Assembly: GCA_003862155.1 (NCBI GenBank) | Contig: QOUV01000009.1 | Location: 1 to 64,000 of the forward strand | Length of the DNA: 64,000 nucleotides | Reading direction: 5' to 3' | Source: Lachnospiraceae bacterium | Lineage (GTDB): Bacteria; Bacillota; Clostridia; Lachnospirales; Lachnospiraceae | Part shown: positions 329-63,364 of the stretch, in pieces | Layout of the letters: each line of letters starts with the position of its first letter | How positions within the stretch are numbered: the first letter of the stretch is position 1 | Position numbers and translations under genes: made by a program | The notes under the pieces: model-generated | Told to the model about the DNA's origin: nothing | The model's input: only the letters and a program-made list of their open reading frames with translations | Database searches by the model: none

Positions 329-3300
329 GATCCCGCTCGTAAGAGCGGGTGGATAGAAATCACAGGGAGCTAAAAACCTTTTCAACTCCGTGATCCCGCT
401 CGTAAGAGCGGGTGGATAGAAATCTCTGTGGCTCTGTAGCACGGTTCAAATGGTGATCCCGCTCGTAAGAGCGGGTGGATAGAAATGACCTAACTATCCT
501 TTCCATCATCGCATTAACGATCCCGCTCGTAAGAGCGGGTGGATAGAAATAACTTTTTCGCCCGGTTTCATTGCTGGGTGGGGATCCCGCTCGTAAGAGC
601 GGGTGGATAGAAATACATGTCGTCCGTGAAGCTGATCTCCGGAAGGGATCCCGCTCGTAAGAGCGGGTGGATAGAAATAGGATGTCCGTGATCGGGTTGT
701 CGTCGCTTCGGATCCCGCTCGTAAGAGCGGGTGGATAGAAATAGTGCTACTCCGAGGTAAGTCGTTCCGTGATAGATCCCGCTCGTAAGAGCGGGTGGAT
801 AGAAATAACAGATCAGAAAGGCTGTTGGAAAGGATTGGATCCCGCTCGTAAGAGCGGGTGGATAGAAATACATGTCGTCCGTGAAGCTGATCTCCGGAAG
901 GATCCCGCTCGTAAGAGCGGGTGGATAGAAATACACCTGGGACAAAATCGCCTACTCGCAACTCGGATCCCGCTCGTAAGAGCGGGTGGATAGAAATACG
1001 GGTCTTGCATGATCACGTAGCCCAGCATGATCCCGCTCGTAAGAGCGGGTGGATAGAAATAGCGACACAATCGCCCTCACGGTTTACAACGAGATCCCGC
1101 TCGTAAGAGCGGGTGGATAGAAATGTCCTCCGCTCATCTTCATGGAATCCAGGAGGATCCCGCTCGTAAGAGCGGGTGGATAGAAATACTGCATTACTGA
1201 TAAAATCGACCGCACCACTGATCCCGCTCGTAAGAGCGGGTGGATAGAAATATTGATAAACTCAAGCCGTCAGTAATCCTTGTGATCCCGCTCGTAAGAG
1301 CGGGTGGATAGAAATAAGGTCACGCACGAAGTATATGATGATCAGTGATCCCGCTCGTAAGAGCGGGTGGATAGAAATTGAGATGAAGTCGATGTGGTAA
1401 GGGACTGGCTGATCCCGCTCGTAAGAGCGGGTGGATAGAAATGATTCCCCACCATTCATAAATTTCCTGCATATGATCCCGCTCGTAAGAGCGGGTGGAT
1501 AGAAATATTATTGCTACGATTATCCAAGTGATAGGACAGATCCCGCTCGTAAGAGCGGGTGGATAGAAATTTCGACAAGAGGGCTGAAGTCTTGCAGATG
1601 TGATCCCGCTCGTAAGAGCGGGTGGATAGAAATCAACGTCATTGGCATTTCTTACCATCTCGTTCGATCCCGCTCGTAAGAGCGGGTGGATAGAAATAGA
1701 GCTGACAGACGATGAGGCCGCAGAGCTTGATCCCGCTCGTAAGAGCGGGTGGATAGAAATATCGGAGAAACGATCGAAAACATCACGAACAAGATCCCGC
1801 TCGTAAGAGCGGGTGGATAGAAATATGTCCATGCAGCAGATCACGATGGCCGTCAGATCCCGCTCGTAAGAGCGGGTGGATAGAAATATAGGAATGCAGA
1901 TCAAAATTGAGAAGGATAAGGATCCCGCTCGTAAGAGCGGGTGGATAGAAATGTTACTGTTGCTCCGTCTGCAGTTCTAGCCCAGATCCCGCTCGTAAGA
2001 GCGGGTGGATAGAAATACGTTTACGGGGTCAGAGTTTGTTCAGGCACCGATCCCGCTCGTAAGAGCGGGTGGATAGAAATGCCATTGCAACACCGGTATT
2101 CATACCACTCATCGATCCCGCTCGTAAGAGCGGGTGGATAGAAATATTCTTGACTATGCTTTTGATGACAAGGAAAGATCCCGCTCGTAAGAGCGGGTGG
2201 ATAGAAATACCGACCGTGTGCCTTATGACGTTTGGGTTGATGATCCCGCTCGTAAGAGCGGGTGGATAGAAATTATGCCGTCGATAGAAGCCCAGGAGAT
2301 CCTTGGATCCCGCTCGTAAGAGCGGGTGGATAGAAATTCGAGGAACTCGCTTTCCCACTCCTCAACGGTGAGAGATCCCGCTCGTAAGAGCGGGTGGATA
2401 GAAATTTTTATCGCACGAGTGATGGAACCGCCAGTCTGGATCCCGCTCGTAAGAGCGGGTGGATAGAAATCCGCCTATTATGTATATTCAGAAAGATGCC
2501 TAGGGATCCCGCTCGTAAGAGCGGGTGGATAGAAATATCTATGACGCTTTATGACAACTTCAAGGCAGGATCCCGCTCGTAAGAGCGGGTGGATAGAAAT
2601 TGCCTCTTGTCAATGCTGTAAAGCCTCTGCAGATCCCGCTCGTAAGAGCGGGTGGATAGAAATCTTGTACATCGCCCTTATCAGCTTTCCAATCGATCCC
2701 GCTCGTAAGAGCGGGTGGATAGAAATTTTATTATGTAAAATTATACCGCTTGATACCCGATCCCGCTCGTAAGAGCGGGTGGATAGAAATCAGAAAGCCT
2801 CAGAGAGTGCTTCTGATGATCGGATCCCGCTCGTAAGAGCGGGTGGATAGAAATACATAATAACACGCAGATTCTATCACCTTGCGATCCCGCTCGTAAG
2901 AGCGGGTGGATAGAAATGATTATTTTCCTGATGATCTTGGAGAGGGTGCGATCCCGCTCGTAAGAGCGGGTGGATAGAAATAGGAACAGGATGTAGCATA
3001 ACCTGAAGCTGCAGGATCCCGCTCGTAAGAGCGGGTGGATAGAAATAATCGGATGCCTCGATGATCTCTTCCAGTGCGATCCCGCTCGTAAGAGCGGGTG
3101 GATAGAAATAATCGGATGCCTCGATGATCTCTTCCAGTGCGATCCCGCTCGTAAGAGCGGGTGGATAGAAATCGGGCTATGCAGAGCAGTTCGCAAAAGC
3201 AATGAGATCCCGCTCGTAAGAGCGGGTGGATAGAAATATGCCCTTTTTATACTTATCATCTTCAAGCAGGATCCCGCTCGTAAGAGCGGGTGGATAGAAA

Positions 3301-6300
3301 TTATGAGAGGTCTGCCTTGGTAAGTTCCCTTAGAGATCCCGCTCGTAAGAGCGGGTGGATAGAAATATATATTCATAAAGAACGATGAGTACTGTATCGA
3401 TCCCGCTCGTAAGAGCGGGTGGATAGAAATCTTTCTTTCCGCACTCGAAGCAGAAAACATAGGATCCCGCTCGTAAGAGCGGGTGGATAGAAATACTACC
3501 GAGAGATGAAGAAGACCGCCGACACGATCCCGCTCGTAAGAGCGGGTGGATAGAAATTTCATACCGACGAAGACGACGTAGGAGATACAGATCCCGCTCG
3601 TAAGAGCGGGTGGATAGAAATGCTTTAGAGACTCTCTTAGTAGCCTCTACATCAGATCCCGCTCGTAAGAGCGGGTGGATAGAAATTGAAGTACTAACTT
3701 TGTATGGTCAAGAGGTACAGATCCCGCTCGTAAGAGCGGGTGGATAGAAATCAGTTGATGCATTCCCTTCTTTTTTCTCCCGGATCCCGCTCGTAAGAGC
3801 GGGTGGATAGAAATTATCGCCCTGGACGCTTCGAGCCGGTCACCGATGATCCCGCTCGTAAGAGCGGGTGGATAGAAATCAAAGAATACGATAGGATATT
3901 CAGATAACTGGATCCCGCTCGTAAGAGCGGGTGGATAGAAATGGGTATGGTAATTTTACAGAAGATAGTAAATTCGATCCCGCTCGTAAGAGCGGGTGGA
4001 TAGAAATAATCAGATCATTAAGAAGGTTTATGATATTTGGATCCCGCTCGTAAGAGCGGGTGGATAGAAATTTGAACACCACAAGCAAGCCGAAAGTGGC
4101 AAGGATCCCGCTCGTAAGAGCGGGTGGATAGAAATAAATTTATTGAGGTAGTAAACGAAGAAAAGAAGATCCCGCTCGTAAGAGCGGGTGGATAGAAATT
4201 CCTGATTCTTTTGCGACTTACTGACCGCCTGATCCCGCTCGTAAGAGCGGGTGGATAGAAATACTACACCTTTTGCAAGGTTCACGCCGACTTCGGATCC
4301 CGCTCGTAAGAGCGGGTGGATAGAAATTATTCGTCAGTTTGTTCGTAGAGCAGAACGAAGGATCCCGCTCGTAAGAGCGGGTGGATAGAAATCTGATTAG
4401 GACTATAATCGAACATCCATGTCTGATCCCGCTCGTAAGAGCGGGTGGATAGAAATAGTTATAGGTGTCTGTCATGTTCTCGACGAATGGATCCCGCTCG
4501 TAAGAGCGGGTGGATAGAAATTAACTGGGTAGATGCAAATAATGTAACGTTCGATCCCGCTCGTAAGAGCGGGTGGATAGAAATAATGAAAAATCCCGTT
4601 AGCCATACGCTTGCTCGATCCCGCTCGTAAGAGCGGGTGGATAGAAATTTCTGCAAAAATGACGTTACTTTTGCTGCACCGATCCCGCTCGTAAGAGCGG
4701 GTGGATAGAAATATGATAGCCGGCAAAGATATTATCAAGTCTGGATCCCGCTCGTAAGAGCGGGTGGATAGAAATAATAGGACGAACAATACTAGAAGGA
4801 ATGGAAGGATCCCGCTCGTAAGAGCGGGTGGATAGAAATACTTGAAAACAACTTGAAAATAACACTTGACAATCCCGCTCGTAAGAGCGGGTGGATAGAA
4901 ATGTACGTTCATTAGGAATCTGATATACATTCCAGATCCCGCTCGTAAGAGCGGGTGGATAGAAATTAATTGTGCACTCTGGCAAGATTCCAGTTGGGAT
5001 CCCGCTCGTAAGAGCGGGTGGATAGAAATAATGAAAAATCCCGTTAGCCATGCGCTTACTCGATCCCGCTCGTAAGAGCGGGTGGATAGAAATGACGGTG
5101 GATATACGGAGATTGGTGGTGGTACGATCCCGCTCGTAAGAGCGGGTGGATAGAAATAAGTTAATTCCATACACGGTGTTCACAGGTGGATCCCGCTCGT
5201 AAGAGCGGGTGGATAGAAATGTATGGCCGGATCAGGAACTCCCTGCCTGTCTGATCCCGCTCGTAAGAGCGGGTGGATAGAAATATGCAAATGTTATATA
5301 TGAAGCAGGCGACAAAGATCCCGCTCGTAAGAGCGGGTGGATAGAAATATTGGCTTCAGCTACTTTATCCATAGCTTCAGATCCCGCTCGTAAGAGCGGG
5401 TGGATAGAAATAAACAGATTATATAAGAAGTCTTGAAGAAAAAGATCCCGCTCGTAAGAGCGGGTGGATAGAAATATAGGATGAAGAACACCATGATCTG
5501 TTCCCGATCCCGCTCGTAAGAGCGGGTGGATAGAAATATCACAAGCATTACAGATACTATCGGAGCAAGGATCCCGCTCGTAAGAGCGGGTGGATAGAAA
5601 TAAACAGATTATATAAGAAGTCTTGAAGAAAAAGATCCCGCTCGTAAGAGCGGGTGGATAGAAATTATCAACCTTCTTTTAGTGCTTCACGCACCTTGGA
5701 TCCCGCTCGTAAGAGCGGGTGGATAGAAATGTAAGAAAGAGCAGAGGTGATACAGATGATAGGATCCCGCTCGTAAGAGCGGGTGGATAGAAATTTTGCC
5801 TGCATATCTGCCGTGTAGGTCACTCTTGATCCCGCTCGTAAGAGCGGGTGGATAGAAATTTTATCTCATTGATTGCAGCAACTGCACTCGGATCCCGCTC
5901 GTAAGAGCGGGTGGATAGAAATAAAGGCATCACGAACATGAACCTTGCGGAGTTCGATCCCGCTCGTAAGAGCGGGTGGATAGAAATTATGCAATCATTG
6001 ATTCAACAACTGCTGGGGGATCCCGCTCGTAAGAGCGGGTGGATAGAAATCCAGTATTTGGCTCATCCTTGCCCTCGTTTGGATCCCGCTCGTAAGAGCG
6101 GGTGGATAGAAATAGTTCGCTGAACCATCAGGATTGATAATAGGGGATCCCGCTCGTAAGAGCGGGTGGATAGAAATCATAGACCTTTCATCCTGGAGTC
6201 TTTCTATTGATCCCGCTCGTAAGAGCGGGTGGATAGAAATTCAGACTCGCTCTCTGATGAAGAATTTGTCCGTGATCCCGCTCGTAAGAGCGGGTGGATA

Positions 6301-8033
6301 GAAATGCATAAAGGGTGTGTTTGCTGCAATGGGCGCAGATCCCGCTCGTAAGAGCGGGTGGATAGAAATTCCGAGCTCATAGGCAGCTCTTAATGTAGTT
6401 GATCCCGCTCGTAAGAGCGGGTGGATAGAAATGCCACCTATGGATTCTGTGAGTTCATCCACTGATCCCGCTCGTAAGAGCGGGTGGATAGAAATATAGC
6501 TGACTACAATACCAGGCTCGGGCTAACGATCCCGCTCGTAAGAGCGGGTGGATAGAAATTTGAAGAAATAGACGGTCGAGACGGTGATATTGGATCCCGC
6601 TCGTAAGAGCGGGTGGATAGAAATAGGCTTGTCAAGTTGAAATGTATCAACTTGCGATCCCGCTCGTAAGAGCGGGTGGATAGAAATGCAGGTCGGAATC
6701 CCTACACTGACTCCGGCAGAGATCCCGCTCGTAAGAGCGGGTGGATAGAAATGGTATCTGGGACAACTACAGCATGATGCTTGGATCCCGCTCGTAAGAG
6801 CGGGTGGATAGAAATATAAAAGCTACTCCTACTCGAATACAGGCACGGATCCCGCTCGTAAGAGCGGGTGGATAGAAATACGAAATGCTCGTGATCTATG
6901 ACAAGGAAGACCGATCCCGCTCGTAAGAGCGGGTGGATAGAAATACCGGAGAGGAACCGCTCTCAACCGAAACAACGGATCCCGCTCGTAAGAGCGGGTG
7001 GATAGAAATACTGGACTGTATCTCAGACTAAAGCTCTTACTGATCCCGCTCGTAAGAGCGGGTGGATAGAAATTAATAGCCTTGATAGAGCCTTTAGGGA
7101 GCAAGGATCCCGCTCGTAAGAGCGGGTGGATAGAAATACACAACAACCGTGAATTTATCACGGAAAATGGATCCCGCTCGTAAGAGCGGGTGGATAGAAA
7201 TTTTATATTTATAGTTATGCCTTGAATAAGGACGGATCCCGCTCGTAAGAGCGGGTGGATAGAAATTTATAACGTTCCTGCAAACTTGCCTTGACGATGA
7301 TCCCGCTCGTAAGAGCGGGTGGATAGAAATATTCGATGGCTTTTCGTGCTTTCACGAATGCTGAGATCCCGCTCGTAAGAGCGGGTGGATAGAAATGAAG
7401 GGTTGTTGCTGGAGCAACGTACACTGGCGATCCTGCTCGTAAGAGCGGGTGGATAGAAATGAACAACCTTATAATAGAATTTTGGCTGTTCGATCCCGCT
7501 CGTAAGAGCGGGTGGATAGAAATTTCGTATCGTCTTCCAAGACCTGACTCATGTGATCCCGCTCGTAAGAGCGGGTGGATAGAAATAAAGAGTTCCCGCT
7601 CCGTTGGTCGCCAATGTTGATCCCGCTCGTAAGAGCGGGTGGATAGAAATTTCGTATCGTCTTCCAAGACCTGACTCATGTGATCCCGCTCGTAAGAGCG
7701 GGTGGATAGAAATAAAGAGTTCCCGCTCCGTTGGTCGCCAATGTTGATCCCGCTCGTAAGAGCGGGTGGATAGAAATTTCGTATCGTCTTCCAAGACCTG
7801 ACTCATGTGATCCCGCTCGTAAGAGCGGGTGGATAGAAATAAAGAGTTCCCGCTCCGTTGGTCGCCAATGTTGATCCCGCTCGTAAGAGCGGGTGGATAG
7901 AAATCCTGCAAAGGCAGCAGGCTTTACGCTTTTTACGATCCCGCTCGTAAGAGCGGGTGGATAGAAATAATATTCCTTTAGGTATCGCTATGAAGTTACC
8001 AGATCCCGCTCGTAAGAGCGGGAGGATAGAAAT
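329..8033 (+). CRISPR. CRISPR array, 121 repeats / 120 spacers, type I-C-like
   Basis: The repeat is 32 bp, starts GATCCCGCTC, has a loop GTAA between CCCGCTC and GAGCGGG (a 7-bp stem), and ends GTGGATAGAAAT. Length, central stem and the GTGGATxGAAAT 3' end are as in type I-C systems, where Cas5 cuts the repeat to leave an 11-nt handle. I counted 121 repeat starts by hand, from 329 to 8002. Spacers are mostly 31-34 nt. Nearly all repeats are identical. Exceptions are the repeat at 4871 (first base A), at 7429 (C to T at position 6), and the last at 8002 (GGAGG for GGTGG), which marks the leader-distal end. Several spacers recur: 615-646 with 870-900, 3047-3077 with 3110-3140, 5412-5443 with 5602-5633, and a two-spacer block three times at 7524-7872. 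No cas gene is in the window, so the subtype rests on the repeat alone. Confidence 0.98.
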
Positions 8034-20713: not shown

Positions 20714-21190
20714 AGAATTATCTTCCGGCTCCGCGGTAGTGGTACTTTCAATATAGGCTTACATGTAGTTGAAAATCATCAAATGTGTCTGCCTGCAGCC
20801 GGTATGTATGAAATGATTTAAATGTAGAGATTTGCGTAGCTGGAAATATACAAATGTGTCTGTCTGCTTCGCGGTATGGAAGAATTGTTTCAATATTTAA
20901 ATTCGTGGAGCTTGAAATATACAAGCTTCGTTCTCGCAGTTTCAGTATGGATATACATGAGACTAAAAATCTTAAAGACTAAAAAGTCATTCTCGATATA
21001 GATTCACGAAGCGTTGAAAATCTTAAACGCTCAAATGTACGCTCTCAATATAGCCTGTCGCGGAGCTGGAAATCTTAAGTGCCTTGTAGAATATTCAGAA
21101 GCAATGGCTGTATATAAAAATTTGAAATATACTCTTTAAGATTTTTGAGCATTATCCCACACATCTTGAGAATGTTTGAAAGCTCTTTAA
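20714..21190 (+). repeat. Non-coding degenerate tandem repeats
   Basis: About four to five imperfect units, 60-100 bases each, share the pattern AGCTGGAAATATACAAATGT, then a CTGCTTCGCGGTATGG-like part and an AT-rich tail (for example at 20766, 20836, 20907, 21012 and 21063). No convincing gene is present. The stretch lies between hairpin repeats B and C. A 16-codon reading frame with a very good ribosome binding site precedes it at 20663-20713. Confidence 0.5.
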
Positions 21191-53924: not shown

Positions 53925-56864
53925 ATGCATTTTATAGGAATTACAGGAGGGGTCGGAGCCGGTAAGAGCGAGGTTCTGAATTTCCTTGAAAAAAATTACA
54001 ACGTAGAGGTCCTGCGCTCGGATGATCTCGCTAAGCAGCTGATCCTTCCGGGTCACGCCTGCTATGACATCATCAGGGAGCAGTTCAAGAATGAAAATAT
54101 CTGGGGCCGCGAGGTGGCATCGGCTCCGGGTAAGCCGCTTATCGACAAGGGAAGGCTCGCTAAGCTTATTTTCACAGATGAGGCCAAGCGCAGGAAATAC
54201 GACGATATCGTTCACCCTGCAGTGCGGGAGGAGATCATCCGCCGCGCCGAATATGCAAGGAAGAGCAGGGAGGTCGATGTATTTTTCTTAGAGGCTGCTC
54301 TTCTGATCGAGGAAGGCTACAAGCAGGTCTGCGATGAGCTCTGGTACATCTATGCTCCGGTCGGAGTCAGGAGAATGAGACTTAAGAGCTCACGCGGCTA
54401 TACCGATGAGAAGATCGACCAGATACTGGCTTCGCAGCTTCCGGACGACGAGTTCAGGAATGCCTGTGACGTCGTCATCGACAATACCAGGGGTATGGAG
54501 GACAATTTTTCAGCTGTGAGTAAAGAGATGGACAGACTCCTTGCGGAAGACAGGAGGAAGCACATTATAGAGGTAAAAGAGGCGGAAGATGACACTATAG
54601 AGCTTCCGGATAATGCCGATGAGCTGGTCTACAGTCTCGATATCGGCACCAGAAATGTCGTCGGAACCGTCGGATACCAGACAGAGGATGGCAGTTTCAC
54701 CGTTGTCGCGATGAAGAGCAGAGAGCACAAGAGCCGTGCGATGCTCGACGGACAGATTCACGACATCGGAAAAGTTGCTGACATTATAAGAGAAGTGACT
54801 GACGACCTCGACGAACAGCTCGGAACCAGACTTCACGACGTCTGCATCGCAGCCGCCGGCCGTGTGCTTCGCACTGTAACGACCAGAGTCGAGATGGATT
54901 TCGACGAGGAGAGAGTTGTCACAGGAGAAGATATTAATACCTTAGACCTGATGGGAGTAGATCAGGCGCAGCGGGATATAAATATGGACGGCGGACCGTA
55001 CAGATTTTACTGTGTAGGCTATTCGCCGATGAAGTATTACCTTAACGGCGAGCTCTTTTCAAATCTCGAAGGGCACAAGGCAAGCCGCGTGGAGGAAGTT
55101 ATTATCGTGACTTTCCTTCCTGAGGACGTTGTAGACGGCCTCTATTCTGCGGTCGAGAGAGCCGGACTTTCAGTCATGAACATGACTCTCGAGCCTATTG
55201 CCGCTATTGCCGTCGCAATCCCTAGAAATTACAGAATGCTTAATATCGCACTTGTCGATGTAGGTGCCGGAACCTCCGATATCTGCATTACGAGGGACGG
55301 AACGATCACGGCCTACGGCATGATACCGTTCGCCGGCGACGAGCTGACGGATGTCCTCGTGCAGGCTTATCTCGTGGATTTTGACACGGCTGAGCAGATA
55401 AAGAAGGACTCGACTGTAAAGGAAAAGGTCACATATTCTGATATCATGGGAATCGAGCACACAATCCCGGCCAAGGATGTCTGGAAGATCACTGACCCTG
55501 TCATGGAAAAAATCACCGACGCCGTCGCAGAGAAGATCATCGAGTTAAATGGAGATAGGACTGTGGCTGCAGCTTTCGTAGTCGGTGGTGGCGGAAAAGT
55601 CCACGGCTTTACGACACATCTGGCAGACAAACTCGGAGTCGTTCACGAGCGGGTGGCTCTCCGTGGCGAAGAAGTCATGAAGAATATCACCTTCCCGGAT
55701 GGAATACATAAGGACCCGCTCTATGTTACTCCGATAGGTATCTGCCTGAATTATTACGAGCAGAAGAACAACTTTATAATGATCCACTTCAACGGTGAGA
55801 TCATGAAGCTTTTCGACAATGGTCATCTGAAGATTGTAGATGCCGCCATGCAGAGTGGCATGGACACCGAAGAGCTTTTCCCAAAGCGTGGAAAAGAGAC
55901 GAGATTTACTGTAAATGGCGAGGAGAGGATGGTCCGCGGCACCGAGGGCGAGTCGGCCCGTGTCATGATGAATGGACACGAGGCATCGCTTAATACGATA
56001 CTTATTCCGAACGCCACAGTAACGATCACCGGTTCCACCGCTGGAAATCAAGGCGTTATGCGTATTGAGAGTCTCGACGAGTATTCGAAGTCGTTTATCT
56101 CGTTTATTGTGAATGGGACCAAGATAAAATGCCCGAAGTTTGTCGAGGTAAACGGTGAGCTCGAGCCTGGCTCTTACGAGATAAAAAATGGTGACAGCAT
56201 TGAGACCAGAGATTTCTACACGGTCGGCGAGCTCGCGGCCTTTATGGACGTCGAGGTAGATCAGAACCACCAGATCCTCGTCAATTCAAATGTTGCCGAC
56301 ATGAATACGCTGATCTATGAGAACTTTGCTATAGACTGGACTGTGACCGGCTATGGCCACGATCAGGCAGTCTACCAGCCTTCGGATCTCGACGGCTACA
56401 CGGATCTTTCGGACGTTCCGGAGAAATCTGATTCTGATCTGGACGGCACAGAAGATACAGGAGTTGAAAAGATTTCAGGGGACAAAGAGAGTACAGCTGC
56501 AGAGACAGGAGAAGCTGCGGAATCAAAAACATCAGACAAAGAACAGACAGATTCTGAGTTTAAAGTTCCGGCAGGAGAGCCGGAGGCGCCTACAAATAGA
56601 CCGGACAGGCCGTCCACTCCACTGACTGAAGAAGCTGCTGACCAGATGGGCATTCCGAAAAATGTGATCTATGTTACCTTCAATGGTGCAAAGGTCAGCC
56701 TCTCTGGCAGAAACGACTATATTTTCGCTGATGTCCTGGCTAAAGTGAACTTCGATGTGGGTCAGGCCAACGGACGTACAGTAACGGCTTTGAGAAACGG
56801 TGTCAAATGCGGTTACGCCGATGCCATCAAAGATGGCGATGAACTGAGGATTGATTTAGAATGA
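53925..56864 (+). CDS. coaE: Fusion of dephospho-CoA kinase (CoaE) and FtsA-like protein
   Basis: One 979-residue frame joins two proteins. Residues 1-206 are CoaE, which makes CoA from dephospho-CoA and ATP: P-loop ITGGVGAGKSEV, DDLAKQL, HPAVREEI and FLEAALLIEEGY. From about 233 an actin-fold FtsA/PilM-type domain follows: VYSLDIGTRNVVGTVGY, AAAGRVLRTV, IALVDVGAGTSDICI and VVGGGGKVHGF. About 640-860 holds a domain of unknown kind, then an acidic linker with EAPTNRPDRPSTPL and a C-terminal beta region. No in-frame start codon lies between 54530 and 54640, so one polypeptide is expected. Such long FtsA-like proteins occur in clostridia; fusion to CoaE is unusual to my knowledge. Its stop overlaps the next gene. 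Confidence 0.88.
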   Translation: MHFIGITGGVGAGKSEVLNFLEKNYNVEVLRSDDLAKQLILPGHACYDIIREQFKNENIWGREVASAPGKPLIDKGRLAKLIFTDEAKRRKYDDIVHPAVREEIIRRAEYARKSREVDVFFLEAALLIEEGYKQVCDELWYIYAPVGVRRMRLKSSRGYTDEKIDQILASQLPDDEFRNACDVVIDNTRGMEDNFSAVSKEMDRLLAEDRRKHIIEVKEAEDDTIELPDNADELVYSLDIGTRNVVGTVGYQTEDGSFTVVAMKSREHKSRAMLDGQIHDIGKVADIIREVTDDLDEQLGTRLHDVCIAAAGRVLRTVTTRVEMDFDEERVVTGEDINTLDLMGVDQAQRDINMDGGPYRFYCVGYSPMKYYLNGELFSNLEGHKASRVEEVIIVTFLPEDVVDGLYSAVERAGLSVMNMTLEPIAAIAVAIPRNYRMLNIALVDVGAGTSDICITRDGTITAYGMIPFAGDELTDVLVQAYLVDFDTAEQIKKDSTVKEKVTYSDIMGIEHTIPAKDVWKITDPVMEKITDAVAEKIIELNGDRTVAAAFVVGGGGKVHGFTTHLADKLGVVHERVALRGEEVMKNITFPDGIHKDPLYVTPIGICLNYYEQKNNFIMIHFNGEIMKLFDNGHLKIVDAAMQSGMDTEELFPKRGKETRFTVNGEERMVRGTEGESARVMMNGHEASLNTILIPNATVTITGSTAGNQGVMRIESLDEYSKSFISFIVNGTKIKCPKFVEVNGELEPGSYEIKNGDSIETRDFYTVGELAAFMDVEVDQNHQILVNSNVADMNTLIYENFAIDWTVTGYGHDQAVYQPSDLDGYTDLSDVPEKSDSDLDGTEDTGVEKISGDKESTAAETGEAAESKTSDKEQTDSEFKVPAGEPEAPTNRPDRPSTPLTEEAADQMGIPKNVIYVTFNGAKVSLSGRNDYIFADVLAKVNFDVGQANGRTVTALRNGVKCGYADAIKDGDELRIDLE

Positions 56865-59846: not shown

Positions 59847-59917
59847 CCGAAAGCACAGAGACGAGGTCAAGCGTAAGCGCCGACCGAGTCATGTGCGAGG
59901 GCGTTCTTTGAGATTGC

Positions 59918-60127
59918 ACGAAAGTTTCGAGATAAGACCGGGCAAAGCGAAGGTCGAATCCGAAACGAGGGCGTTCTTTGAGATTGCACGAAAGTTTCAA
60001 GATAAGACCGAGCAAAGCGAAGGTCGAATCCGAAACGAGGGCGTTCTTTGAGATTGCACGAAAGTTTCAAGATAAGACCGAGCAAAGCGAAGGTCGAATC
60101 CGAAACGAGGGCGTTCTTTGAGATTAA
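59918..60127 (+). repeat. 70-bp tandem repeat, three copies plus partial
   Basis: The unit begins ACGAAAGTTTC and contains GAAGGTCGAATCCGAAACGA and GGGCGTTCTTTGAGATT. Copies start at 59918, 59988 and 60058 and differ by one to three bases; a diverged copy precedes them at 59848-59917 and another is at 58130. Inner dyads (GACC/GGTC, TTCG-AATC-CGAA) suggest hairpins. It lies just before the YoaK-type gene. Reading frames across it are not maintained in the gene. Confidence 0.9.
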
Positions 60128-60929: not shown

Positions 60930-60935
60930 GGTGGA

Positions 60936-61620
60936 TTACGGAGTGAGGATAGAAAATGCTGCTGAGTCCGTAAGCCGAGCTTGTGAATTACGGACTGGAG
61001 ATGGGAAATGAGTCTGAGTCCGTAAACTGAGCTTGTGAATTACGGACTGGGTATGAAAAATGCTGCTGAGTCTGTAAAAGCAGTTAAGAGATTACGGACT
61101 GGAGATGGAAATTGAGATTGAGTCCGTAAGCTGATCTTGTGAATTACGGACTGGATATGGGAAATGAGTCTGAGTCCGTAAACTGAGCTTGTGAATTACG
61201 GACTGGGGATGGAAAATGCTGCTGAGTCCGTAAAAGCAGTTAAGAGATTACGGACTGGGGACGAAAAATAGCTGTGAGTCCGTAAATTGAGCTTGTGAAT
61301 TACGGACTGGGGATGAAAAATGCAGCTGAGTCCGTAAATGAAGACAAGAGATTACGGACTGGGGACGAAAAATAGCAGAGAGTCCGTAAATTCAGTCAGT
61401 AGATTACGGATCGGAGTTGAAAAATAGCTGTGAGTCCGTAAATGAAGTCAGTAGATTACGGATTGGAGTTGAAAAATAGCAGAGAGTCCGTAAATGAAGT
61501 CATGGGATTACGGACTGGAGATGAGAAATGCTGCTGAGTCCGTAAATGAAGCCAGGAGATTACGGATTTGAGCTGAAAAATAGCAGTGAGTCTGTAAATC
61601 CAAGCATGAGATTATAGTTT
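60936..61620 (+). repeat. 52-bp hairpin-repeat array, block 1 (13 units)
   Basis: Thirteen units at about 52-base steps each pair TTACGGACT with AGTCCGTAA (9 bp) around a 20-base loop of the form GG-GATG-AAAATGCTGCTG. Linkers are about 14 bases (AAGCAGTTAAGAGA, ACTGAGCTTGTGAA and variants). A last, degenerate unit ends near 61620. The period is not a multiple of three and no frame is kept, so it is non-coding. After the array comes GCCCGGATGGGCG (61654-61666), shared with block 2. Confidence 0.95.
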
Positions 61621-61678
61621 TGAATTGAAAAAAGTTCTCCAGTTCGTAGTGATGCCCGGATGGGCGAAGTTAATAAAC

Positions 61679-61716
61679 AAGTGCCAGGAGGATTGCCTCC
61701 TGGCACTTGTTTTGTT
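61679..61716. terminator. Terminator after repeat block 1
   Basis: AAGTGCCAGGAGG and CCTCCTGGCACTT form a perfect 13-bp stem with an ATTG loop, followed by GTTTTGTT. It could stop transcripts from the array on the + strand and from the nuclease-like gene on the - strand. Confidence 0.88.
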
Positions 61717-61774
61717 ACAAGTAATTCCTGAATATGGCTGCATGTAGATAAAGTGTTTTTTTTATCATGCTGTG

Positions 61775-62563
61775 TCAAATATAAAATTCCCTGATGATAT
61801 TATTTATAACGTTCATGGCGAGATTGACATGCTCACTCTCAAATGTCAGGATAAGCTGTTTGCCCTGCATTATGCCATTCTTCTCGTAGGCGTTTATTTT
61901 TTGCAGATTTTTAATGAGATAATCGGAGTTTTCCATCATTCCAAGATGTTCGTGATAATATATATGGCCGGTTCGTTTGTTTAAAACTGTGAAATCGGGA
62001 TATACGGAGCTGTAACCCTTCAGGTCGAGTCTGCATTCATACCTGAATGGGACGCCGGCATCTTTTAAGGCATTGGCAATCAGCAATTCGGACTTTGAGC
62101 GGTATCGTTTGCCATCGTTAGAAATAAATTCTTCGCTTATTTTGAAATCAAGCTTTGGGTATTCGGCCTCAGCCCATTGCTTTGCATATGTTTCCTTATC
62201 AATGCAGAGGGGTTGAACAAGCTCTTGTTTCATTGATGGAAGATGTCTGTAAATTTCTTCGATTGGAACTATGGAAATGCCTTTTAAGAATCTGGATATT
62301 ATACCAAGTTCTTTTTTGGCACTTGATAAAACTTTAGAGTGATAGTCCTTGGAAACAAGCTTTTCTGCCAGATCCTTGTCTTTCAGATATGTACGATTGA
62401 AATCAGAATCATCGCAAAAATAATACTGCGCTCTGCCATGAGACCTCGATGCTATCAAATGTCCTTCTGGTGCTGACGCGAGTTTTTTCTCGCACGATGA
62501 GATGATTGTTTCCAGATACTTCTTCCTGGAATTGAGTAATGTGATAAGCTCTTCCCTTGTCAT
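61775..62563 (-). CDS. PD-(D/E)XK nuclease-like hypothetical protein
   Basis: The start at 62563 follows AAGGAGG; the 262-residue protein opens MTREELITLLNSRKKYLE with a coiled N-terminal half. The C-terminal half looks like a restriction-endonuclease fold: RYRSKSELLIANALKDAGVP with the Glu, YPDFTVLNKRTGHIYYHEHL with the Asp and a His-Glu-His in place of ExK, then GKQLILTFES. I recall it as a widespread, unassigned clostridial family. It lies between two 52-bp repeat arrays. Whether the catalytic residues are intact is uncertain, because the usual Lys is absent from the HEH step. Confidence 0.75.
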   Translation of the reverse strand: MTREELITLLNSRKKYLETIISSCEKKLASAPEGHLIASRSHGRAQYYFCDDSDFNRTYLKDKDLAEKLVSKDYHSKVLSSAKKELGIISRFLKGISIVPIEEIYRHLPSMKQELVQPLCIDKETYAKQWAEAEYPKLDFKISEEFISNDGKRYRSKSELLIANALKDAGVPFRYECRLDLKGYSSVYPDFTVLNKRTGHIYYHEHLGMMENSDYLIKNLQKINAYEKNGIMQGKQLILTFESEHVNLAMNVINNIIREFYI

Positions 62564-62643
62564 AGAGACTCCCTCCTTTTTAAAACCCCGTCCATTGTTG
62601 TGCATCCTTCTGCTGCACAATACTGGACAAATCAACGCAGAAT

Positions 62644-62701
62644 AATGAATCCAAAATCTCTGAAACACTTGGAATTTTCACTGACGACAGTTGGATTCAT
62701 T
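62644..62701 (-). promoter_or_regulatory. Inverted repeat upstream of the nuclease-like gene
   Basis: AATGAATCCAA (62644-62654) and TTGGATTCATT (62691-62701) are perfectly complementary 11-base arms 36 bases apart. A further hairpin CATTGTT/AACAATG lies at about 62702-62719, and GTGCA/TGCAC at about 62601-62619. These suit an operator or folded leader for the minus-strand gene starting at 62563. The AT-rich stretch 62720-62800 could hold its promoter. Confidence 0.5.
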
Positions 62702-62810
62702 CATTGTTTTTCAACAATGTGAAAAAGATACTGGAATTATACCACGATTATAATGATTTGGCAATTTTTTTTGAATTTTCACATATTTTATTCAGCACGA
62801 TATAATTGGA

Positions 62811-63264
62811 TTACGTATTGTAAATGAAAAATGAGCCTGAGTCCGTAAAAGCAAGCAGGGGATTACGGACTGGGGAAGGAAAATGAGTGTGAGTCCGTAA
62901 ATGCGAGTGGGGATTTACGGACTTGAGACGAAAAACGAGCCTGAGTCTGTAAAGATACCTTGGGGATTACGTACTGGGGAAGGGAAATTAGTGTGAGTCC
63001 GTAAATGAAGTTAGAAGATTACGTACTGGAACTGGAAAATGCTTCTGAGTCCGTAAAAGCAAGCAAGGGATTACGTACTGGAGATGAAAAACGAGCCGGA
63101 GTCCGTAAATGCAAACAGAGGATTACGGACTGGGGCTGAAAAATAGCTGTGAGTCCGTAAATAAAAGTGTGGATTTACGGACTTGAGATGGAAAATGCTT
63201 CTGAGTCCGTAAAAGCAAGCAGAAGATTACGTACTGGAGATGGAAAACGAGCCGGAGTCTGTAA
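62811..63264 (+). repeat. 52-bp hairpin-repeat array, block 2 (9 units)
   Basis: Nine units at about 52-base steps match block 1 in the hairpin arms (TTACGGACT or TTACGTACT with AGTCCGTAA) and the GATGAAAAA-type loop. Linkers here are AAGCAAGCAGGGGA-like. As in block 1, the last unit is followed by GCCCGGATGGGCG, then TAGATAAACAGATGCC at 63283-63298. The same orientation as block 1. Non-coding. The rest of the gap up to the ABC-F gene (63300-63397) shows only an AT-rich promoter-like region. Confidence 0.93.
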
Positions 63265-63364
63265 AAGGAGCCCGGATGGGCGTAGATAAACAGATGCCGG
63301 AAAGGAACGGATAAGAGATTTTTGGCGGGATACTTGAAAATAGGTTATTTTTCTTGTATGATAA

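Follow-up and report, generated by a model that had tools for sequence, protein, structure and literature searches.

The locus considered here lies in a stretch of 64,000 nucleotides (the window) from a Lachnospiraceae gut bacterium. It raises the question of why two arrays of a 52-bp inverted repeat should bracket the gene of a nuclease, and whether the repeats and the enzyme belong together. An earlier note on the same DNA had left three readings of the arrays side by side: protein-binding sites, a transcribed multi-hairpin RNA, or a mobile tandem element. The reading preferred here, with a probability of roughly 0.62, is that the units are dyad sites of a dimeric nuclease encoded between the arrays, and that the gene and the array on its 5' side form a two-part element. 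The flanking arrays, together with the matching upstream arrays found across the family, point to a nuclease-and-repeat system of which no description was found in the open-access literature searched. The features of the locus are the following (window coordinates, strand, description):

60930-63330, no strand: 2.4-kb segment missing in relatives (67-69 bp separate DUF1275 from ABC-F in G007 and G005)
60936-61611, plus: array 1, with thirteen 52-bp units, starting 6 bp past the DUF1275 stop codon
61612-61649, plus: degenerate 14th unit of array 1, found by direct reading
61654-61666, plus: end motif GCCCGGATGGGCG of array 1, present only at this locus
61675-61716, no strand: intrinsic-terminator-like inverted repeat with a T-run, found by direct reading and, on the minus strand, by script; absent from the consensus scan
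61775-62563, minus: gene of a predicted EDxHD/Vsr-like PD-(D/E)XK nuclease, 262 aa, with conserved RSK-E159, PD190F and E205-H206
62736-62764, minus: predicted nuclease promoter, TTGCCA-17-TATAAT with extended -10, a consensus match only
62778-62806, plus: promoter-like site into array 2, TTCACA-17-TATAAT, a consensus match only
62811-63264, plus: array 2, with nine 52-bp units, on the 5' side of the nuclease gene (63264 is the end of the last arm)
63270-63282, plus: end motif GCCCGGATGGGCG of array 2, present only at this locus

Direct reading and repeat analysis agree that the arrays are real. Every unit of both follows the formula TTACGGACT-N20-AGTCCGTAA-N14, that is, a 9-bp arm, a loop of 20, a second 9-bp arm and a linker of 14, giving exactly 52 bp. 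The 13 and 9 units counted in the earlier note were confirmed, and array 1 gained the decayed 14th unit. The 20-base loop had been described as conserved, which is true of its length but not of its sequence: adjacent units differ on average at 7.2 of the 20 loop positions and 5.6 of the 14 linker positions, compared to 0.76 of the 18 arm positions. The 72 comparisons of adjacent units in the host genome contained 916 loop or linker substitutions and no length change or indel. It is the length of the unit that is kept, and not the sequence of its loop.

The motif GCCCGGATGGGCG does follow both window arrays, as had been noted, but it is not the fixed end of an array. The host genome contains two copies, both of them here, so the motif belongs to the window locus and was rejected as a general array terminus. 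The AAACA-xx-TGCC tail, thought to be shared by the two arrays, turned out in array 1 to be the start of the terminator-like inverted repeat at 61675-61716; array 2 is without that inverted repeat. Another motif, resembling CGCGGAGCCGGAAAT, is dispersed: it flanks several arrays (L018, L019, L022) and recurs at window positions 20780-20924.

The 2.1-Mb host genome (G000) contains 82 hairpins at two or fewer mismatches, in about a dozen array loci. The reversed pattern gave no hairpins in the same genome, so the arrays are not a product of chance. Within the genus, arrays are present in two of 13 genomes, G000 and G008. Copy number, which the earlier note had singled out for comparison, does vary between these relatives and does so by whole units: two orthologous sites contain 17 and 6 units in G000 and one unit each in G008, with the flanks joining at the unit. 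In G007 and G005 the gap between the DUF1275 and ABC-F genes is 67 and 69 bp, respectively, with neither arrays nor nuclease, and the segment at 60930-63330 is therefore an insertion relative to these two genomes. A homing endonuclease cuts a cognate site that lacks the element and is copied into it; of this, relatives show an empty site at the DUF1275-ABC-F junction. In G009 (L127) this gap is occupied by about 1.1 kb of DNA whose ORFs resemble a toxin-antitoxin pair, which makes the gap a hot spot for accessory genes. G008 also carries a second array family (L048, L049, L051, L120), with arms CTACGTGTG/CACACGTAG and a period of 53, adjoining the TTACGGACT arrays; this arrangement suggests two specificities in one genome.

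No Pfam or NCBIfam model covers the nuclease. A tally of Pfam domains around the arrays found no recurrent neighbor, which is explained by the missing Pfam model; tblastn then revealed relatives of the nuclease. RSK-E159, PD190F and E205-H206 are invariant in an alignment of ten sequences, and all 53 later sequences have E159, P189-D190 and E205-H206. The AlphaFold model (mean pLDDT 84, pTM 0.55) consists of an N-terminal domain of long helices and a C-terminal PD-(D/E)XK core, in which the conserved E, PD and E-H residues are accompanied by the expected helix-strand order. The closest matches of the C-terminal domain model are I-Bth0305I (3r3p; Z 8.6, rmsd 2.6 over 90) and Bax1 (8gy8; 8.5), followed by Vsr (1vsr; 7.2) and 7lvv (6.2), where Z values of 7-9 are modest and can arise without homology. 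The best Foldseek hit of the model has an E value of 0.014. The residues and the model together place the enzyme, as a predicted member, in the EDxHD/Vsr-like branch of the PD-(D/E)XK nucleases.

On Rhizobium, Paracoccus and Embleya plasmids (NZ_CP013539, NZ_CP115765 and NZ_CP108786), AAA ATPases also end in the C-terminal nuclease domain, which is all that they have in common with the nuclease. A profile of the nuclease family has matches in 121 of 397 Lachnospiraceae genomes, and a single genome can contain up to six paralogues. The rpsI gene (ribosomal protein S9) is found directly upstream of nine of 70 nuclease loci (L156, L159, L163, L164, L166, L169, L173, L178 and L181); the site downstream of rpsI is apparently either an insertion hot spot or the ancestral location of the nuclease.

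A generic pattern, TACG-N28/29-CGTA-N16-TACG-N28/29-CGTA, was run on the same 397 genomes and matched in 27 of them, many with other arm sequences. The reversed control matched once in each of two genomes. With loop and linker left free, loops were still 28-29 in 293 of 297 cases and linkers 16 in 228 of 236, at loci preselected by a matching pair. The nuclease is present in 22 of the 27 TACG-array genomes versus 99 of the 370 without such arrays (Fisher 2e-8), and in 12 of 17 when the 10 seed genomes are removed (p=3e-4); the remaining five of the 27 are without a nuclease match at E 1e-20.

The association extends well beyond the TACG core. By tblastn, nine other genera have homologues of the nuclease (31-37% identity) that adjoin arrays with different arms. 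In many nuclease genomes outside the TACG set, arrays with other cores are positioned upstream of the gene, including TGACCGCA, TTGACCTCA, GTGACCGCA/TGCGGTCAC, CCGACT, TGATGC, ACAGCG, TACTGC, GCATGC and more. A periodic array is located directly 5' of the nuclease gene at 61 of 83 loci; the earlier note had asked whether the gene regularly adjoins such arrays in other genomes, and it does. The other 22 loci have no array by the score used, though some show one by eye. In the first locus set an array is upstream at 47 of 62 loci and downstream at 3 of 43 (p=4e-13), compared to 4 of 541 control windows; loci that are related do not count as independent observations in these statistics, and the genomes are mostly drafts or MAGs. 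Array 1 of the window is one of the three downstream cases, and array 2 is the upstream array.

The sequence of the arms changes together with the enzyme. Half-sites were called by eye from the arrays, prior to the nuclease tree, and arm type follows that tree (Mantel r -0.40; 0 of 2000 permutations). Clades have arms of their own: the TGACCGCA type in 7 of 7 members, TGATGC, CCGACT and ACAGCG/ACATCG in 3 of 3 each, in addition to a TACGGTT clade. A half-site is identical to that of its nearest relative at 5.5 of 8 positions, compared to 4.2 when shuffled, and half-sites are retained even as loops and linkers diverge. Common descent of a gene and its neighboring array could produce part of this co-variation. 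Dispersed arrays bear the arm of the resident nuclease where both are known, for instance TACGTACT in G309 and TACGGACT in G000, and since these arrays were mostly found by the TACG pattern, it is arm positions 5-8 alone that test the match. In G316 a dispersed 52-bp array (L224, 8300-8600) has arms TGCACCA/TGGTGCA, unlike the array beside the nuclease of that genome (L186); some arrays may thus belong to another, undetected nuclease.

The periods of the arrays at nuclease loci fall into separate classes of 51-54 bp (33 arrays), 61-64 bp (18) and 70-75 bp (9), with one outlier at 85 bp and none between. The three classes correspond to 5, 6 and 7 turns of 10.5 bp. On the nuclease tree, nine or more changes of class have taken place, for example between 62 and 73 bp inside the TGATGC clade and between 52 and 64 bp on the sister branches L186 and L192. 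Whole-turn steps of this kind are expected if the sites must face the same side of double-stranded DNA; RNA hairpins or slippage would not readily account for them.

Outside the Lachnospiraceae, the phylum-wide sample contained no TACG arrays, its matches being those of G000 and a single one in G219; a distribution throughout the phylum was therefore ruled out for the genomes sampled. A contig of an Atopobiaceae MAG from reindeer rumen (L050, 1200-2072) has the same TTACGGACT arms with a 52-bp period, following another array whose arms are CAACTT/AAGTTG, and within 8 kb of this contig there is no nuclease beside the array. Carriage by phages or plasmids was rejected: IMG/VR contained neither arrays nor confirmed relatives of the nuclease, the palindromes on viral contigs are single and isolated, and the plasmid matches are the AAA ATPases mentioned above. 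An unannotated fecal record, MT839528, encodes a relative at 34% identity without an array. Of 46 arrays, 18 are between convergent genes, 19 between co-directional and 9 between divergent ones. Some begin directly after a stop codon and others are beyond a terminator.

Of the three readings in the earlier note, sites for a protein, presumably the adjacent nuclease, agrees best with these results. Each 52-bp unit would consist of two 9-bp half-sites arranged as a dyad in double-stranded DNA and would be bound by a dimer of the nuclease encoded between the arrays, and tandem repetition would present the sites on the same side of the helix. Together, the nuclease and the array immediately 5' of its gene would constitute a two-part element comparable to REPtrons or homing elements, and the array probably also controls the gene, by a hypothetical autoregulation. 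Arrays elsewhere in the genome with the same half-site would be non-autonomous copies or additional targets. Spread and expansion of arrays might proceed through breaks made by the nuclease and recombination, as in homing and REPtrons; this step is less well supported than the others. A mobile tandem element with a nuclease is a possible description. A wider proposal is tentative and falls somewhat short of even odds, namely that the element belongs to a class, widespread in Lachnospiraceae and not described before, with an EDxHD-like nuclease, a fast-diverging cognate half-site, and a helically phased palindromic array that is both operator and target, and that it spreads arrays of its sites through the chromosome.

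In the main rival reading, a defense or toxin nuclease might be held by the arrays, acting as DNA sponge and operator, and be released when host DNA is damaged or taken over. PADLOC relates the C-terminal domain to the C-terminus of the defense candidates PDC-S68/S69, the plasmid ATPases end in a related domain, and both the patchy distribution of arrays in the genus and the numerous paralogues would suit a defense gene. However, the PDC entries are candidates only, defense-island neighbors were not seen, and the growth of arrays at many sites is unexplained by defense alone; this rival is considered unlikely. Dyad sites of a nuclease are also preferred to a reading in which a Y1 (RAYT) transposase made ordinary REP/BIME-like repeats and the nuclease is a passenger. 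The repeats are indeed palindromic, intergenic, dispersed and often between convergent genes. A REP is defined as a palindrome of 20-40 bp, tagged at one of its ends with GTAG or CGTC (PMC3733652), but neither tag was found in the sequences of the array units. The Y1 transposase is absent from G000 and is found in 7 of 18 array genomes versus 12 of 18 array-less ones, which led to the rejection of a RAYT/REP identity, and the nuclease is strongly associated with the arrays. This explanation is disfavored to the point of being very improbable.

A transcribed multi-hairpin RNA, be it a leader, a 3' UTR element or a guide-like array, is improbable as well. Mismatches in the arms are uncompensated inside arrays, contrary to the stem covariation for which the earlier note had proposed a check, which makes a conserved RNA stem unlikely. 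Sense-strand mismatches comprise 63 G-U and 44 A-C, with no clear G-U excess, and no Rfam covariance model matched at E<=1; a conserved RNA stem was rejected on these grounds. Sense units do fold slightly better than antisense units (-9.8 vs -9.0 kcal/mol, p=0.04), a marginal bias. The central A-tract tends to be on the sense strand, a promoter-like site reads into array 2, which may thus be transcribed, and some arrays begin right at a stop codon. On the other hand, arrays are also found beyond terminators and between divergent genes, and fixed 14-bp linkers and 10-bp steps of the period are unexpected for an RNA hairpin.

Several known systems resemble the proposed element in part. BOX elements of pneumococcus (boxA-boxB(n)-boxC) have a variable number of internal units between fixed ends and no associated gene. 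The variable unit number is similar, but BOX differs in sequence and length and in lacking a gene, and the end motif of the window is private to one locus. REPtrons likewise have an enzyme gene next to palindromic repeats that also occur dispersed between genes, and their enzymes are specific to their repeats. Their enzyme is of the HUH (Y1) type, whereas the one described here is a predicted PD-(D/E)XK nuclease, and the window repeats are without the GTAG tag and would be helically phased tandem double-strand sites, with the array upstream of the gene. I-Bth0305I, whose structure is the best match of the modeled catalytic domain, is an EDxHD homing endonuclease that dimerizes on its target, a site nearly 60 bp long (PMC3943268). 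This length is close to that of one array unit and favors the reading of a dimer on each unit. Unlike the window nuclease, which is a free gene with tandem arrays, I-Bth0305I is encoded in a phage intron and has one target.

In TIGR-Tas, variable spacers of 8-12 nt lie between constant edge and loop repeats, and the proteins have a Nop domain (PMC12045711). The tandem arrays beside an effector gene are similar, as are arm-like parts that are constant within a locus and differ between loci. Here, however, the 9-mers are the constant part of the units, the spacers are mutually related, and the protein is a predicted PD-(D/E)XK nuclease; TIGR-Tas was rejected by its spacers. A Pfam search for a Nop domain had no match, and the N-terminal helical hairpin resembles the TasH coiled coil with Z 8.5, a value that is unspecific for long helices. 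The window arrays are not CRISPR arrays, with identical direct repeats and unrelated spacers, either, given that their loops and linkers are mutually similar and their arms inverted.

An unnamed nuclease family present in about 30% of the sampled Lachnospiraceae genomes is linked to matching sites that change with it. DNA specificity could be decoded from the dozens of enzyme-site pairs that occur naturally, and the spacing by 5, 6 or 7 turns makes selection for helical phasing testable. A new route for the origin of repeats in bacterial chromosomes is a further possibility. The element may be a selfish element, a defense system or a system that organizes the chromosome.

The window contains other repeats. 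A very long CRISPR array with the 32-bp repeat GATCCCGCTCGTAAGAGCGGGTGGATAGAAAT occupies positions 329-7904; at 7487-7904 a block of two spacers is repeated 3.3 times with 99% identity, the spacers having been duplicated. A 70-bp tandem repeat (59896-60125; 3.3 copies, 98%) begins shortly ahead of the DUF1275 gene and runs into its 5' part. A 979-aa ORF at 53925-56864 contains, by eye, a domain like dephospho-CoA kinase followed by one like FtsA.
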